42,684 bases of DNA, taken from an uncultured Synergistales bacterium (GTDB lineage Bacteria; Synergistota; Synergistia; Synergistales; Aminobacteriaceae). The notes under the pieces are model-generated. The model was not told the DNA's origin and made no database searches. It was given only the letters and a program-made list of their open reading frames with translations. Position 1 is the stretch's first letter. Each line of letters opens with the position of its first letter. Shown here one piece after another: positions 10,857 to 16,639 of the stretch. Location of the stretch: assembly GCA_905235735.1 (NCBI GenBank), contig CAJOMU010000014.1, forward strand, positions 1 through 42,684, given 5' to 3'. Made by a program: the position numbers and the translations under genes.

Positions 10857-13223
10857 TTGAATCAGGAAAAAGAATACTCTGTAATGATAGGCGAAGTACC
10901 GCTCGTATTTAAGACAGGGAAGTTAGCGAAACAGGCAAATGGTGCAGTACTTGCATCACAGGGAGAGACAGTAATACTAAGCACGGCATGTATGACGGAA
11001 GAAGCGAGGACAGGATTAGATTTCTTTCCTCTTGTTGTGGACTACGAAGAGAAATATTATGCGGCAGGAAAAATACCAGGAGGATACATTAAGCGCGAAG
11101 GCAAACCATCAGATTCAGGGATATTAGGTTCAAGAGTTGCAGACAGAGCTATACGTTCATTGTTCGATGATGATATGCGCAATGATGTTCACATAGTCAA
11201 TACTGTAATGGCAGTAGATCAGGTGTATCCTCCGAACGTATTGGGCATAAACGCGGCAAGTGCAGCACTCGCAATCTCAGGCATCCCATGGAACGGGCCA
11301 GTAGGAGCAGTAAGAATAGGATTAATCGGCGGAAACTTACTCGTGAATCCAACAGAGGAACAAATGAACAATTCACTGCTCAATCTCGTAGTAGCAGGCC
11401 ATGAAGACGGAATCACAATGGTAGAATCAGGTTCATATGAAGTTTCAGAGGAAATATTGGTTGATGCTCTCGAACTTGCACATCATGAAATACGAAAGAT
11501 AATCGCACTCTTTAAGCGAATGAAGGAGGAAGTAGGCAAACCATTAATTGAAGTTCCGAAGCCCGAAAGAATTCCAGAAATAGACGACTGGGTACGAGAG
11601 AATCTTGACGGAGAAGTAGACGAAGCGGTAAGAATTCATGAGAAGAAGCCGCGAGAGAAAAAGATAGACGCAATCAAGACAGCAGCAAAAGAACATTTCA
11701 GTGAACTCATCAAAGAGAATCCCGACAAAGAAGAATACATTTCATCATATGTAGACAGCCGAGTAAAGACGATAATGCGCGGAATAATCATAAATGAACA
11801 TATTCGTGTTGACGGCCGCAGAATGGATGAGATACGTCCAGTTTCATGCGAGACTGATATTTTGCCTCGCGTACATGGTTCAGCACTCTTCACACGGGGA
11901 GAGACGCAATCACTCGCGACAACGACACTGGGAATGATAGGTGAAGATGACCAGCTGCAGGACGGAATTAAACTGAATGAACCGGCGAAGAGATTCATTC
12001 TTCATTACAATTTCCCGCCGTACTCAGTCGGAGAAGTCAAACCTATGCGCGGGCCGGGCAGACGTGAAATAGGACACGGTGCACTTGCAGAGAGAGCGTT
12101 ACTGCCTGTCATACCGAGTGAAGAAGATTTCCCGTATGTTATTCGAGTTGTGTCAGACATTCTCGAATCTAACGGTTCAAGTTCACAGGCGAGTATCTGC
12201 GGAGGATCACTCTCGATGATGAATGCGGGTGTACCGATAAGATGTCATGTCGCAGGAATCGCAATGGGACTAATAAAGGAAGGCGACAGGGTTCAGATAC
12301 TAACGGACATTCAGGGTCTTGAAGATCACTATGGGGATATGGACTTCAAAGTTGCAGGAACGAGAGCAGGAGTAACGGCTCTTCAAATGGACAATAAAGC
12401 GGGAGGCATAACGCGGGAAATTCTTGAAGAGGCACTTGGCCAGGCACGTAAAGCAAGGTTTGAGCTTCTCGAAAAAATGGAAATTGCAGTACCAAGACCT
12501 AACCCGTTATCACCGAATGCACCGAGAATAATAACCTTCGAGATTGATCCTGATAAGGTACGTGATGTAATAGGTGCAGGCGGAAAAGTTGTACGCAGCA
12601 TAACGCAGAGAACGGGCGTAAAGATGAACATTGAAGATGACGGTACGATTTCAATTTCAGGTTCGACTATGGCACAGGTTGAGGATGCAAGAGCAATAGT
12701 GTTATCACTTACGCATGAACTCACAGCAGGAGATGTATATCTCGGAACAGTTACACGCCTAATCAGCTTCGGTGCATTTGTTGAATGTCTTCCCGGTAAA
12801 GAAGGTTTACTGCACATAAGCGAGGTAAGTACGATAAGAGTTCCGAGAATTGAAGACGTATTCAAAATAGGCGACAGAGTTCTGGTAATGGTGAAGGAGA
12901 TAGACGATCAGGGACGTGCGAACTTAACGCGCAGGAGAGTACTTGCGAATGAAAACAAGGTGAGGGAAGCAGGTCTTTCACATGCATTGCCAGATGAAAG
13001 AGAACGCGAGAATCTGATTGCATCATTATCATCACGTGAACGCGGATATTCTTCAGGATATGCATTCAGGGATCACGTAGGGTCAGGCTACAATGAACGC
13101 GGATATTCAGGTTCATCAAGATCAGGACGCAATGAATTCGGACGCACAGAGTTCGGCAGGAATGTATATTCAGACAGGGACAGCAGGAGACGTAATGACA
13201 GGAGACGCGACTATGATAGATGA
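10857..13223 (+). CDS. pnp: Polynucleotide phosphorylase with RG-rich tail
   Basis: Phosphorolytic 3'-5' exoribonuclease of mRNA decay. Two RNase PH domains (about 10-230 and 310-550) flank a helical linker; the catalytic half shows FPPYSVGEVKPMRGPGRREIGHGALAERAL. A KH domain (about 558-618, with VIGAGGKVVRSI) and an S1 domain (about 625-695, with GTVTRLISFGAFVECLPGKEGLLHISEV) follow. At 788 residues it exceeds the usual 700 through a C-terminal tail rich in Arg, Gly, Ser and Asn, suggesting extra RNA binding. The start is TTG 10857, 11 bases after AGGAGG (10840-10845). The gene overlaps dut by 11 bases. Confidence 0.97.
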   Translation: MNQEKEYSVMIGEVPLVFKTGKLAKQANGAVLASQGETVILSTACMTEEARTGLDFFPLVVDYEEKYYAAGKIPGGYIKREGKPSDSGILGSRVADRAIRSLFDDDMRNDVHIVNTVMAVDQVYPPNVLGINAASAALAISGIPWNGPVGAVRIGLIGGNLLVNPTEEQMNNSLLNLVVAGHEDGITMVESGSYEVSEEILVDALELAHHEIRKIIALFKRMKEEVGKPLIEVPKPERIPEIDDWVRENLDGEVDEAVRIHEKKPREKKIDAIKTAAKEHFSELIKENPDKEEYISSYVDSRVKTIMRGIIINEHIRVDGRRMDEIRPVSCETDILPRVHGSALFTRGETQSLATTTLGMIGEDDQLQDGIKLNEPAKRFILHYNFPPYSVGEVKPMRGPGRREIGHGALAERALLPVIPSEEDFPYVIRVVSDILESNGSSSQASICGGSLSMMNAGVPIRCHVAGIAMGLIKEGDRVQILTDIQGLEDHYGDMDFKVAGTRAGVTALQMDNKAGGITREILEEALGQARKARFELLEKMEIAVPRPNPLSPNAPRIITFEIDPDKVRDVIGAGGKVVRSITQRTGVKMNIEDDGTISISGSTMAQVEDARAIVLSLTHELTAGDVYLGTVTRLISFGAFVECLPGKEGLLHISEVSTIRVPRIEDVFKIGDRVLVMVKEIDDQGRANLTRRRVLANENKVREAGLSHALPDERERENLIASLSSRERGYSSGYAFRDHVGSGYNERGYSGSSRSGRNEFGRTEFGRNVYSDRDSRRRNDRRRDYDR

Positions 13224-13653
13224 GATAACGGTGAAGATTCAGCGGAAGGCACAGACCGTAGAGATACCGAAATACGCAACTCCAAATTCAGCAGGCGTAG
13301 ATTTATGTTCAATGATGTACGGAATAATTCAGCCAGGAAAGCAAATGTTAGTTCCGACTGGAATTAAGCTCGCAATACCTGAAGGCTACGAAGCACAGAT
13401 AAGACCAAGAAGTGGGCTAGCATTGAATCAGCACATCATAATTCCCAATAGTCCCGGCACAATTGATTCGGATTATCGCGGTGAGGTTATGGTCTTGCTG
13501 TTGAACATGGGCACTGAACCTTTCACAATTACATTTGGCGACCGAATTGCACAAATGGTATTTGTACCTGTAGTGCGAGCGAAGTTTCAGGATGTGAAGA
13601 CGCTCGATGATACGAAGAGAGGTTCAGGTGGTTTCGGCAGTACAGGACGGTAG
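13213..13653 (+). CDS. dut: dUTP diphosphatase (trimeric dUTPase)
   Basis: Hydrolyses dUTP to dUMP, supplying dTMP synthesis and keeping uracil out of DNA. All five trimeric dUTPase motifs are visible: AGVDLCS, RPRSGLA, GTIDSDYRGEV, RIAQMVF and the C-terminal RGSGGFGSTGR loop. I place the start at ATG 13213, giving 146 residues as in the family, because AGGAG (13200-13204) sits 8 bases ahead; longer in-frame starts upstream lie in the pnp tail region. The 11-base overlap with pnp points to translational coupling. Confidence 0.95.
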   Translation: MIDEITVKIQRKAQTVEIPKYATPNSAGVDLCSMMYGIIQPGKQMLVPTGIKLAIPEGYEAQIRPRSGLALNQHIIIPNSPGTIDSDYRGEVMVLLLNMGTEPFTITFGDRIAQMVFVPVVRAKFQDVKTLDDTKRGSGGFGSTGR

Positions 13654-13662
13654 ATTAATTTT

Positions 13663-13687
13663 TTCCCTCTTACGTAATGTGAGGGGG
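13663..13687 (+). terminator. Weak hairpin after dut
   Basis: CCCTC (13665-13669) pairs with GAGGG (13681-13685) around an 11-base loop, extendable by T-G wobbles. No T-run follows; the -35 of the next promoter starts at 13688. Read-through from pnp-dut into the peptide cassette therefore remains possible. Confidence 0.35.
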
Positions 13688-13716
13688 TTGTATATACTAT
13701 ATATATATAGTATAAT
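13688..13716 (+). promoter_or_regulatory. Promoter of the RiPP cassette with a palindromic operator in the spacer
   Basis: TTGTAT (13688-13693) and TATAAT (13711-13716) are 17 bases apart. Bases 13693-13714 form a perfect 22-bp palindrome (half-site TATACTATATA and its complement), which overlaps the end of the -35 and most of the -10. A dimeric regulator bound here would block polymerase. The palindrome is AT-only except for one C and one G, so cruciform or melting effects are an alternative reading. Confidence 0.75.
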
Positions 13717-13747
13717 ACCATTATAAATTTTCTAGGAGGTCATACAC

Positions 13748-14059
13748 ATGACGGATAACATGAAGAAATTCGCTGAACTTCTCTCAGTTGATAAGGAAGT
13801 AATGAAAGAACTTGATGCACTGGTATCAGGTCTCAGCAAGGACGACAGAAAAGGTTTCGTCAAAGCAGCAATCAAAGTTGCGGCCCAGCACGGAATCACT
13901 CTGACGGAAGAAGAATTCAATGAAGAGAAAAAGGAACTAAAGGAACTTTCATTGGACGAGATGCAGGCAGTTGCAGGCGGTGTGGAGTGCAAGCATGGCT
14001 GGTTCAAAGGTGAATGCGATAGCTGGTTTGCTGGTAGATGCGACTCACTTTTTGATTAA
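13748..14059 (+). CDS. Nif11-type leader RiPP precursor peptide
   Basis: 103-residue precursor of a ribosomally made, modified peptide. Residues 5-60 resemble a Nif11-like leader (MKKFAELLSVDKEVMKEL, then KVAAQHGITLTEEEF), ending in ELSLDEMQAVAGG, with the double glycine at 77-78 as presumed cleavage site. The 25-residue core (79-103) contains Cys81, Cys90 and Cys98, each followed by an aromatic/hydrophobic pair: WF (85-86), WF (93-94), LF (101-102). AGGAGGT (13734-13740) lies 7 bases before the ATG. A radical SAM/SPASM maturase gene follows on the same strand. The product is unknown; thioether or Cys-aromatic crosslinks are plausible given the partner enzyme. Confidence 0.85.
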   Translation: MTDNMKKFAELLSVDKEVMKELDALVSGLSKDDRKGFVKAAIKVAAQHGITLTEEEFNEEKKELKELSLDEMQAVAGGVECKHGWFKGECDSWFAGRCDSLFD

Positions 14060-14127
14060 TGCCGCTGTGTAGAGTGTTCTCTCTGGCATTGTTTCAATTC
14101 CCCTGTTGTTTAATATACGGGGGATTT
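14058..14127 (+). terminator. Two tandem hairpins between precursor and maturase genes
   Basis: First hairpin: AATGCC (14058-14063) with GGCATT (14085-14090), with inner AGAG/CTCT (14071-14074 / 14079-14082). Second: AATTCCCC (14096-14103) with GGGGGATT (14119-14126), one wobble, 15-base loop, followed by an interrupted T stretch (TTATTGTTT). The second has the same shape as the organism's other terminators but a poorer T-run, so partial termination giving more precursor than enzyme is likely. Confidence 0.55.
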
Positions 14128-14153
14128 ATTGTTTCACGGGGCATTAAATCAGA

Positions 14154-15569
14154 ATGAAAAATTATTACAGACTAAACGGCAGATATATTCTTAGGGGCTG
14201 GGAAAAACTTCCGTATGCAATCGTTGACACTCAGACAGACAAGGCTGAATTCATTGATGCAGAACATATGAGCGCATTGAACTGGTGCAGCGGAAATATT
14301 GATATAACAATCCCGTTAGTATCTGACAATGAGAGAGCAATAATTCATGAATATGTTTCACGCGGAATTGTCGAACCATGTGAACATGGCCATGTCATAA
14401 GCAGGAATCAGGAATATAAATTTTATCCCGTTCGTTATGTTAAATCCGTTCAATGGTCAATAACAGGCAGGTGCAATTTCAAGTGTAAGCATTGTTATTT
14501 ATCAGCATCGACAGCTAAATTCGGTGAGATTTCACACGAAGAAGCCATGTACATAATCTCTCAGCTTGAAGAGTGCGGTATAAGAGAAGTGAAACTTACA
14601 GGCGGAGAACCATTAGTGCGCAGTGATTTCTGGGAGATTGTTGATGCTCTTATTGAACACGGAATCAGAATCACTCAGATATATTCAAACGGTGCGCTTG
14701 TGAATGAGAAATTCATTGAAGGACTCACTTCACGCAGATTGCACCCTGCAATCTACATCAGTTATGACGGTGTTGGCTGGCATGACTGGTTACGCGGTGT
14801 TAAAGGTGCTGAAGCAATGGCTGAACGTGCAATAAAATTATGCACCGATAACGGCTTTCATGTTATAGCTGATATGTGCCTTCACAAGCATAATAAGCAT
14901 ACAATAAATGAGAGCGTTAAACGTATGGTTTCGCTCGGAGCTTCTCTTATTCGGATCGGAGGCATTTCGAACACAGGAAGCTGGAAGGAGAACAATGAAG
15001 CAGATAATGCATTGAGTACTGATGAACTCTTCAGTCTGTACTATGACTATCTGCCGCAGTTCTTCGGGAATAACCTGCCAATAGGCTTATGGCTCGCATC
15101 ATTCTTTATCTACAATGACGGCATAAATGAGTTCTGTATACCTAACTACATGGAAAAATCAAATCCTGACAGCTGCATATGCGGTATAAGATCTGATATG
15201 TACATTTCTCCTGAAGGCCGCGTACTGCCCTGTATGCCTATGGCCGGAACTGTACTTAATGACAGAATGCCTTTCATTCAGGAAAAATCCCTTGCTGAAT
15301 GCATAAATGATTCTGCGTGGTTCAATATCGTGAATCTAAGAGTACGCGATTACTGGGCGGCTAATGAGGAGTGCCGGAACTGTGAATATGCTTCTGTATG
15401 TTCGCCTGGATGCCGTGCCTCTGCTCTTGAATATGAACCTGATAACTACATAGCCAAATCGCCGGTATTATGCACACTAATTAAAGGCGGCTGGCCTGAA
15501 AAGATTATTACTCTCATGAAGAGAATCAAACCTGAACTTGAATGCGTTAATCTAAGAAACAGGCAGTAA
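14154..15569 (+). CDS. Radical SAM/SPASM peptide maturase
   Basis: Predicted modifying enzyme for the adjacent precursor. Residues 1-95 look like a PqqD/RRE-like recognition segment (GWEKLPYAIVD, ALNWCSGNID, IIHEYVSRGIVEPC). The radical SAM core starts with Cys107-x3-Cys111-x2-Cys114 (GRCNFKCKHCY) and shows LTGGEP (149-153). A C-terminal SPASM-type region holds Cys341, 343, 360, 407, 410, 416, 420 and 440, enough for auxiliary Fe-S clusters (SPEGRVLPC; CRNCEYASVCSPGCRA). Length of 471 fits nif11-class and other SPASM maturases. No strong Shine-Dalgarno precedes ATG 14154, which with the hairpins upstream suggests low expression relative to the precursor. The reaction is not predictable in detail. 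Confidence 0.88.
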   Translation: MKNYYRLNGRYILRGWEKLPYAIVDTQTDKAEFIDAEHMSALNWCSGNIDITIPLVSDNERAIIHEYVSRGIVEPCEHGHVISRNQEYKFYPVRYVKSVQWSITGRCNFKCKHCYLSASTAKFGEISHEEAMYIISQLEECGIREVKLTGGEPLVRSDFWEIVDALIEHGIRITQIYSNGALVNEKFIEGLTSRRLHPAIYISYDGVGWHDWLRGVKGAEAMAERAIKLCTDNGFHVIADMCLHKHNKHTINESVKRMVSLGASLIRIGGISNTGSWKENNEADNALSTDELFSLYYDYLPQFFGNNLPIGLWLASFFIYNDGINEFCIPNYMEKSNPDSCICGIRSDMYISPEGRVLPCMPMAGTVLNDRMPFIQEKSLAECINDSAWFNIVNLRVRDYWAANEECRNCEYASVCSPGCRASALEYEPDNYIAKSPVLCTLIKGGWPEKIITLMKRIKPELECVNLRNRQ

Positions 15570-15572
15570 ATC

Positions 15573-15606
15573 AAATCTCCCTTATGTACGAGGGGGATTT
15601 TTTTGT
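15573..15606 (+). terminator. Terminator of the RiPP cassette
   Basis: AAATCTCCC (15575-15583) pairs with GGGGGATTT around a loop of about 10 bases, and the right arm runs directly into a T7 tract. A convincing intrinsic terminator that separates the cassette from argC. Confidence 0.8.
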
Positions 15607-15635
15607 CTCATTCGTTAGTGAACTTTTGTTCATTA

Positions 15636-15676
15636 TATGCTAAAATGTTGACGCATAATTTATTCGTGATTATAAT
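15636..15676 (+). promoter_or_regulatory. argCBD promoter with internal inverted repeat (possible ArgR site)
   Basis: TTGACG (15648-15653) and TATAAT (15671-15676) are 17 bases apart, a near-consensus promoter. Within the spacer, CGCATAA (15652-15658) and TTATTCG (15660-15666) form an inverted repeat with one mismatch around a central T. ARG boxes in other bacteria are AT-rich imperfect palindromes (TGAAT-like arms) placed over promoters of arginine genes, so an ArgR operator is a reasonable guess. A second extended -10 (TATGCTAAAAT, 15636-15646) lies just upstream. Confidence 0.65.
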
Positions 15677-15709
15677 ACCTCCATCAAAAATTTATGGAGT
15701 TATTGAATC

Positions 15710-16639
15710 ATGAAGAAAGTTTTTATTGACGGTTATGCAGGTACAACCGGCCTCAGAATTTACGAGAGGCTATCTTCACGCAAAGATATTCAGCTTCTCA
15801 CTCTCACCGAAGAAACTCGCAAAGATATTAACGCGCGCAAACATGCACTCAATGAATCGGATATAGCATTCTTATGTCTGCCTGATGATGCCGCAAAAGA
15901 ATCAGTATCGCTCATCGATAACCCGAATACGGCAGTCATAGATACATCGACAGCTCACAGGGTCAATCCTGACTGGGCATATGGCCTCCCTGAACTGAAA
16001 TCGCAGAGAGAAAAAGTCAAAGCGTCAAAGAGAATCGCTAATCCCGGATGTCATGCAACTGGATTCATTGTTCTCGTTGCTCCGTTAGTGCAGGAAGGAA
16101 TTATCGCAAAAGATTCAAGGCTTTCATGCTTCTCATTGACGGGTTATTCAGGCGGCGGCAAAAAGATGATTGCAGATTACGAATCAAATGAACGTTCACA
16201 TATGCTTGATGCTCCGCGTCAGTACGGAATCACTCAGGCACATAAACATTTACCCGAAATGACGAAAGTATCAGGTCTCAATGTTGCTCCTGTATTCTGT
16301 CCTGTAGTTGCGGATTACTATGCAGGAATGGAAGTTACTGTTTCGATTCATGGCCATGATGTTAAAGGCGGAATTGCGAAAATCAAAGAGTGCTATTCGG
16401 ATTACTATCATGACGGAGTGATTAATTTCACGGACAAAGATACGTTCTCTGAAGGCAATTTCATATCAGCCGGAGCATTCGCAGGACGCGATGACCTTGA
16501 AGTGTGCGTTTACGGAAATGATGAACGCATGATACTTGTCTCAAGGTTCGACAATCTCGGCAAGGGTGCATCAGGTGCAGCAATTCAGAACATGAATATA
16601 TTGCTCGGAGTTGAAGAATCAACCGGGCTTGTAGTGTAA
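15710..16639 (+). CDS. argC: N-acetyl-gamma-glutamyl-phosphate reductase, type 2
   Basis: Third enzyme of arginine synthesis: NADPH-dependent reduction of N-acetylglutamyl phosphate to the semialdehyde. The N-terminal Rossmann motif is VFIDGYAGTTGLRIYERL, and the active-site cysteine is Cys114 in NPGCHATGF. The 309-residue length and the gap pattern match the shorter type-2 ArgC subfamily rather than the 340-350-residue type 1. First gene of argC-argB-argD, 12 bases before argB. GGAG lies about 10 bases before the ATG. Confidence 0.95.
   Translation: MKKVFIDGYAGTTGLRIYERLSSRKDIQLLTLTEETRKDINARKHALNESDIAFLCLPDDAAKESVSLIDNPNTAVIDTSTAHRVNPDWAYGLPELKSQREKVKASKRIANPGCHATGFIVLVAPLVQEGIIAKDSRLSCFSLTGYSGGGKKMIADYESNERSHMLDAPRQYGITQAHKHLPEMTKVSGLNVAPVFCPVVADYYAGMEVTVSIHGHDVKGGIAKIKECYSDYYHDGVINFTDKDTFSEGNFISAGAFAGRDDLEVCVYGNDERMILVSRFDNLGKGASGAAIQNMNILLGVEESTGLVV

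Follow-up and report, generated by a model that had tools for sequence, protein, structure and literature searches.

A Nif11-type precursor and a radical SAM/SPASM maturase form a candidate RiPP cassette between dut and argC in a Synergistaceae genome

A two-gene RiPP cassette, with a Nif11-type precursor gene (13748-14059, +) followed on the same strand by a radical SAM/SPASM maturase gene (14154-15569, +), was found with dut on one side and argC on the other in the genome of a Synergistaceae species of a kind known from ruminant guts. The window, i.e., the whole stretch of DNA analysed (42,684 nt), is the entire contig C14 of this 2.1 Mb genome, which is 99.8% complete. An earlier, sequence-only reading of the DNA had proposed such a pair; both ORFs were found where it had placed them, and the proposal is well supported. 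We consider it fairly probable that the cassette encodes a leader-guided, thioether-forming RiPP that is modified by the radical SAM/SPASM enzyme and exported in trans. The RRE-like domain of the maturase would bind the 78-aa leader, and the enzyme would cross-link the three-Cys core, most likely by thioethers from Cys to nearby residues. The modified peptide would then be cut after Gly-Gly and exported by the genome's single C39-peptidase ABC pair, whose genes lie on a different contig (C25). The cassette is genuine, and radical-SAM-modified peptides are already known as a kind; the maturase subfamily is apparently unnamed.

Organization of the cassette

The cassette, its parts and its neighbours are as follows (evidence in brackets).

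13093-13653: dut, left neighbour of the cassette
13665-13687, +: terminator hairpin 3' of dut, left border of the cassette (terminator scan; comparison with the empty site of genome G012, see below)
13688-13716, +: possible promoter, TTGTAT-17 bp-TATAAT, inside an AT palindrome (read by eye)
13734-13739, +: ribosome-binding site AGGAGG, perfect, 8 nt before the precursor ATG (sequence)
13748-14059, +: precursor, 103 aa, Nif11-like leader and core (ORF, profile searches, dN/dS)
13748-13981, +: leader, 78 aa, ending in Gly-Gly (sequence)
13982-14056, +: core VECKHGWFKGECDSWFAGRCDSLFD, 25 aa, three Cys (sequence)
14099-14124, +: terminator-like intergenic hairpin, 8-bp G+C-rich stem followed by UUUAUUGUUU (folding)
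14154-15569, +: radical SAM/SPASM peptide maturase, 471 aa (Pfam, alignment, model, fold matches)
14154-14393, +: predicted N-terminal RRE-like (PqqD-like) domain, residues 1-80 (model and fold comparison)
14472-14495, +: radical SAM cluster motif CNFKCKHC (Cx3Cx2C), residues 107-114 (sequence, alignment)
15180-15473, +: SPASM domain with seven Cys, C343 to C440 (Pfam, conserved columns)
15573-15600, +: terminator hairpin followed by seven T, forming the right border (terminator scan)
15710-16639: argC, right neighbour of the cassette

The strong ribosome-binding site and the T7 terminator of the earlier reading were both recovered. Its dedicated promoter is plausible: both boxes are recognizable by eye, but no more than three of six positions match in the -35 box, and the promoter scan did not report the pair. 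The stretch between the two genes folds with an MFE of -30.9 (z -3.1 against shuffles), and a strong ribosome-binding site comparable to that of the precursor is not visible before the maturase gene. Both features would hold the enzyme below the level of its substrate, the hairpin as a possible attenuator.

The maturase and its N-terminal domain

The maturase exceeded the cut-offs of the Pfam profiles Radical_SAM (PF04055, 71.4 bits, cut-off 29.5) and SPASM (PF13186, 22.6 bits, cut-off 21.5). When it was aligned with 66 relatives, the Cys of the Cx3Cx2C motif were invariant, and C343, C360, C407, C410, C416, C420, and C440 of the SPASM domain were each invariant or nearly so; the SPASM Cys noticed by the earlier reading are therefore a full set of seven. 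The AlphaFold2 model (pLDDT 93) had its best solved match in SkfB (Z 27.6, rmsd 4.9, 351 aligned residues including the N-terminal domain), with anSME, SuiB (Z 25.6), CteB (Z 24.7), and TigE among the further matches.

Residues 1-93 were also modelled alone (pLDDT 94). This model aligned mainly with RREs (FusB1, TbiB1, TruD, MccB, PbtF, PqqD, and CteB), best illustrated by FusB1 (Z 7.3, rmsd 2.3 over 72 residues). The Z values are modest and a few non-RRE proteins align too, and since the Foldseek E-value is only 0.03, the evidence stands at the level of the fold. The models thus support the RRE-like segment that had been read from the letters, for which a leader-binding role is predicted.

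The comparison with NCBIfam radical SAM families, suggested earlier as a check, gave no equivalog anywhere near its cut-off. The maturase scored 72.1 bits against TIGR04103 (cut-off 725), and the curated sactipeptide models AlbA (70.9 of 850), SkfB (70.9 of 300), and StsB (87.6 of 625) were missed as well. Like the TIGR04103 maturase 3 with its TIGR03798 precursor, the cassette places a Nif11-type leader with Gly-Gly beside a radical SAM maturase; its own enzyme, to judge by the distance from the TIGR04103 cut-off, belongs to a different subfamily and carries an N-terminal RRE-like domain. The sactipeptide/thioether maturases SkfB and CteB and the streptide maturase SuiB share the RRE-like domain, radical SAM core, and SPASM domain, but they are only 15-21% identical to the window maturase, which reaches no curated group model and whose chemistry is predicted.

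The precursor and its relatives

Taken alone, the window precursor stayed below threshold against TIGR03798 (21 bits, cut-off 32.3, E 3e-4) and did not match PF07862. Its relatives did match: 49 of 54 aligned sequences matched TIGR03798 at E < 0.01 (best 8.8e-19), and 36 of 54 matched PF07862 (best 5.9e-14). The Nif11-like leader of the sequence-only reading, which had proposed a search with Nif11 HMMs, is therefore secure only through the family, where the assignment is firm; the Gly-Gly is present as described. A leader model built from the relatives, with the window precursor among its seeds, matched a single ORF (E 8e-22) among the 360 of the window and nothing at 18 control radical-SAM loci.

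The leader closes with ...ELSLDEMQAVAGG, and its end, LSLDEMQAVAGG, carries L(-12), E(-8), M(-7), G(-2), and G(-1). The pattern recognized by C39 peptidases, L(-12)-x3-E(-8)-L(-7)-GG (PMC6363468), is thus present except for Met in place of Leu at -7. The core is Cys-rich, as had been noted, with three Cys in 25 aa. Each is followed by W or F at +4 (C-x3-W/F), an arrangement with p 0.003 by shuffling, or 0.04 if any offset is allowed, from three Cys only.

Cores across the subfamily and the predicted cross-links

Of the 102 subfamily maturases, 82 have a peptide with this type of leader encoded no more than 1.5 kb away on the same strand; the association with such peptides, on which the earlier reading had staked its proposal, is thus common among homologues. 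Cys occurred in 121 of the 138 neighbouring cores (88%), at least two Cys in 110 of the 138, and many cores lacked Trp. The dominant core type in Clostridia and Coriobacteriia relatives is built of C-x-C-x3-G-x-G units, usually three per core, in which Gly stands at +6 of ~91% of the Cys.

Thioethers are the cross-links that we would expect. The Gly at +6 would suit Cys-to-Gly thioethers in the C-x-C relatives. In streptosactin (GggA/GggB), compact Cys-x2-Gly/Ser thioether rings are made by a radical SAM/SPASM enzyme (PMC8172795), so Gly can be an acceptor; precursor, maturase, and ring spacing differ from those of the window. For the window core, a C-x3-aromatic ring would be the first guess because all three Cys have an aromatic residue at +4. 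The test for a shared acceptor position was strong for the C-x-C relatives and weak for the window lineage.

The same pair of genes could also make a RiPP with C-C or other non-thioether cross-links, e.g., on Trp or Phe (WFK, WFA), with the Cys serving as disulfides or metal ligands. SuiB forms a Lys-Trp C-C bond and is among the best fold matches of the maturase, TigE, another RRE and SPASM maturase, matches too, the window core is rich in W and F beside its Cys, and the maturase matches no NCBIfam equivalog. We nevertheless hold this alternative to be rather unlikely: Cys is the common denominator of the neighbouring cores, many of which do without Trp, and the dominant relatives, with their three C-x-C-x3-G-x-G units, have no aromatic positions.

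Conservation, loss, and core turnover at the dut-argC site

The phylogenetic tree grouped the window maturase with exactly those of genomes G035 (two copies), G005, and G024 (support 100), and all maturases of this group adjoin argC. The gene dut lies opposite argC in G035 and further off in G005, while the G024 contig begins within the maturase. Homologous cassettes occupy the dut-argC site in four species.

The closest relative of the window genome, G012, has an empty site. There, argB, argC, and dut share 99%, 92%, and 93% identity with their window counterparts, and dut and argC stand 148 bp apart with nothing between them. The cassette is also absent from further relatives, and in other species the gap is occupied by different genes, so the site is variable. 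As for the stable trait suspected earlier, the conserved site in four species agrees with it and the absence from G012 and others does not. By eye, the gap holds a 5'-nucleotidase-like gene, sometimes with small SGNH-hydrolase-like genes, at three loci (L174, L175, and L176).

At the G012 junction, the left part of the dut terminator of the window (CCCTCTTgCGTAATGTGAGGGGG) is joined to the tail of the right terminator (ATTTTTTT...TTAGTGAAC). Comparison with G012 places the repeat GAGGGGG at both borders of the cassette: one copy, at 13681, is the 3' arm of the dut terminator hairpin, and the other lies at 15590-15596. As the nearest maturase occupies this very position in G035, the simpler reading would be that G012 lost the cassette by recombination between the terminators; acquisition through the GAGGGGG repeat would be the less simple alternative. 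The terminator pattern CCC-N-GGGGGATTTTTT was found at only six sites of the genome (eight overlapping matches), so the likeness of the flanking hairpins is not trivial, but it does not prove that the element is mobile.

Purifying selection acts on both the leader and the enzyme. Between the window and the orthologous cassette of G035, the leader gave a dN/dS of 0.19-0.24 and the maturase one of 0.18, ratios that are rough as dS is ~1. The cores at this site (VECKHGWFKGECDSWFAGRCDSLFD, DACGDFWANFICTFGKAPIVYPD, WACGDLWATLLCDVSGQGSVL, WKCNESHVAAVRTYALCGWCNYSHIW, DSDCGEAYVKGYMTVAKCGWCNYTRMW, KCTNDTQLIYCGSPNWWCGWLA, and DCVFVGCGETATRECWGLAAAVIAW) are hypervariable except for their Cys. The C-x3-aromatic pattern is partly kept in G035 and not in G005 or G024, whose cores are so different that no single shared ring pattern is visible. 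A diversifying core with a conserved leader and enzyme is what would be expected of a secreted peptide for competition or signalling between gut bacteria, and this is the role that we propose. Conserved Nif11-like leaders with diverse cores are also found in Prochlorosin/Lah-type lanthipeptide systems, where the C39 transporter tolerates many cores (PMC6363468); those systems use LanM instead of a radical SAM enzyme, and the window has one precursor per cassette. With one enzyme lineage and one kind of leader set against very different cores, the system is well suited to testing how the choice of bond is made by promiscuous radical SAM maturases.

It is highly improbable that the cassette is a functionless, decaying relic. 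Related genomes do contain broken copies of this maturase (G024, G033, and G005, with stops or splits), and the closest relative has the empty site. Both window genes, by contrast, are intact and come with a ribosome-binding site and a terminator, all catalytic Cys are kept, and the dN/dS values are low (0.18-0.24).

Export in trans

The genome was searched for C39-peptidase ABC transporters, as the sequence-only reading had advised, and one was found, on C25, with a second ABC gene 3' and a 79-aa HlyD-like protein 5'. Its C39 peptidase domain scored 118.3 bits against PF03412 (cut-off 22). With this C39 ABC and second ABC, the pair resembles the NHLM/NHLP export system (TIGR03794, TIGR03796, TIGR03797), from which it differs in staying just under the cut-offs (845.9 bits against TIGR03796, cut-off 853.3, and 679.6 bits against TIGR03797, cut-off 709.4) and in its reduced HlyD gene. 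The HlyD-like protein matches only the first 44 of 421 HlyD family positions; it is a reduced adaptor and not a broken gene, as it is conserved in several species.

Among 37 genomes of the genus, 12 had both maturase and transporter, none the maturase alone, four the transporter alone, and 21 neither. The transporter was thus present in 12 of 12 genomes with the maturase and in four of 25 without it (Fisher p ~1e-6, or 1e-4 with genomes at least 90% complete), counts that are not independent events because the genomes are related. In several relatives, the same transporter pair adjoins the maturase, together with small HlyD-like proteins of 63-172 aa. The earlier suggestion that the functions of export and cleavage must lie elsewhere was right at the level of genes, and the exporter probably acts in trans. 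The case for this comes from co-occurrence, and against it the C39 transporter would also have to serve the other precursors of the genome. The lack of an adjoining transporter, which had been called unusual, is not so, because the same genus has cassette copies both beside the transporter and apart from it. If exporters do act in trans, this would explain incomplete-looking cassettes, which cluster-based mining could miss.

Alternatively, the modified peptide might be retained inside the cell and serve as a redox carrier or as the precursor of a cofactor, like mycofactocin or PQQ. No transporter, protease, or immunity gene adjoins the cassette, and housekeeping genes lie on both sides. We regard this as very unlikely: the leader retains the C39 signature, the maturase co-occurs tightly with the transporter, a cofactor peptide would be expected to be conserved, not hypervariable in its core, and no mycofactocin- or PQQ-specific match exceeded its cut-off.

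A 63-79 aa protein opens NHLM-type transporter operons on C25 of the host genome (locus L049, 3054-3293, +) and, as the same gene, at L058, L062, L183, and L185. Short GG-leader ORFs with a C2H2-zinc-finger-like core (CPVPGCNF...HMKQAH) lie at L049 (995-1198, -), L060 (8315-8512, +), and L133 (2064-2402, +); the L060 copy has a sub-threshold zf-C2H2 match, and a DUF7005 gene adjoins the L049 copy.

Distribution of the maturase subfamily

Members of the subfamily scoring over 400 bits were present in 12 of the 37 genomes of the genus, and the best maturase score in 24 genomes of other families was 64 bits. A scan of GTDB genomes, whose counts are lower bounds, had among the matches listed relatives in Bacillota, Coriobacteriia, Treponema, Mailhella, and others, mostly gut MAGs. 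The subfamily is large, occurs in gut MAGs of several phyla, and apparently has no name; the cassette points to a sizeable group of RiPP maturases of gut and rumen bacteria that is unnamed in curated libraries. Searches of an open-access library found no named family of this sort, combining Nif11 and radical SAM, for Synergistaceae or rumen bacteria, though a published description may exist. None of 205 plasmid records matched by the maturase covered 80% of it (best listed places 26% identical), giving no sign of plasmid carriage; the viral contigs searched had only nine weak, partial radical-SAM matches, and the phage records searched had none.

The 23 Synergistaceae rows of a quick tree formed one group (SH-aLRT 99) inside Bacillota relatives. 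This suggests one horizontal acquisition into Synergistaceae followed by duplication, which we infer from a tree with a midpoint root. It is conceivable, if somewhat doubtful, that the subfamily ancestrally worked on triple C-x-C-x3-G-x-G cores, was acquired by a single Synergistaceae genus, and diverged there into three or more lineages with different cores. The window lineage would then sit in a fixed dut-argC site, with leader and enzyme kept and the core replaced per species, giving ring patterns (e.g., C-x3-aromatic) new to RiPPs.

Three further such loci are present in the host genome, on C16, C17, and C19. The C16 locus has a maturase and three precursors with C-x-C cores; these lie in tandem (L015, 8252-9439, +), consist of C-x-C-x3-G-x-G units, with the full triple in two of them, and adjoin the paralogous maturase. 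Two precursors and a maturase make up the C17 locus, and more precursors are found at the end of C22. At the C19 locus, a more distant radical SAM gene adjoins a LanM-type synthetase and a GG-leader peptide, possibly a lanthipeptide and radical SAM hybrid. These three genes belong to locus L018 and lie at 11635-13068, 13088-15802, and 15790-16092, all on the - strand; the radical SAM/SPASM protein scores 184 bits as a distant paralogue of that in the window, and the peptide core is DGDPFEYTNICDLTQGCIQPTDCQC.

Elsewhere, a split maturase 71-77% identical to that of the window was seen away from dut-argC in G024 (L053, contig C39, 6047-7627, +), a decayed sister copy. G035 agrees over its contig with the goat abomasum MAG RGIG1542 (L050 and L069, with the same genes and lengths). 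Near Clostridia maturases of the subfamily (L133, L134, L136, L140, and L143), long cores contain GCAATVExGSDCWGTDGGC followed by zinc-ribbon-like Cys pairs.
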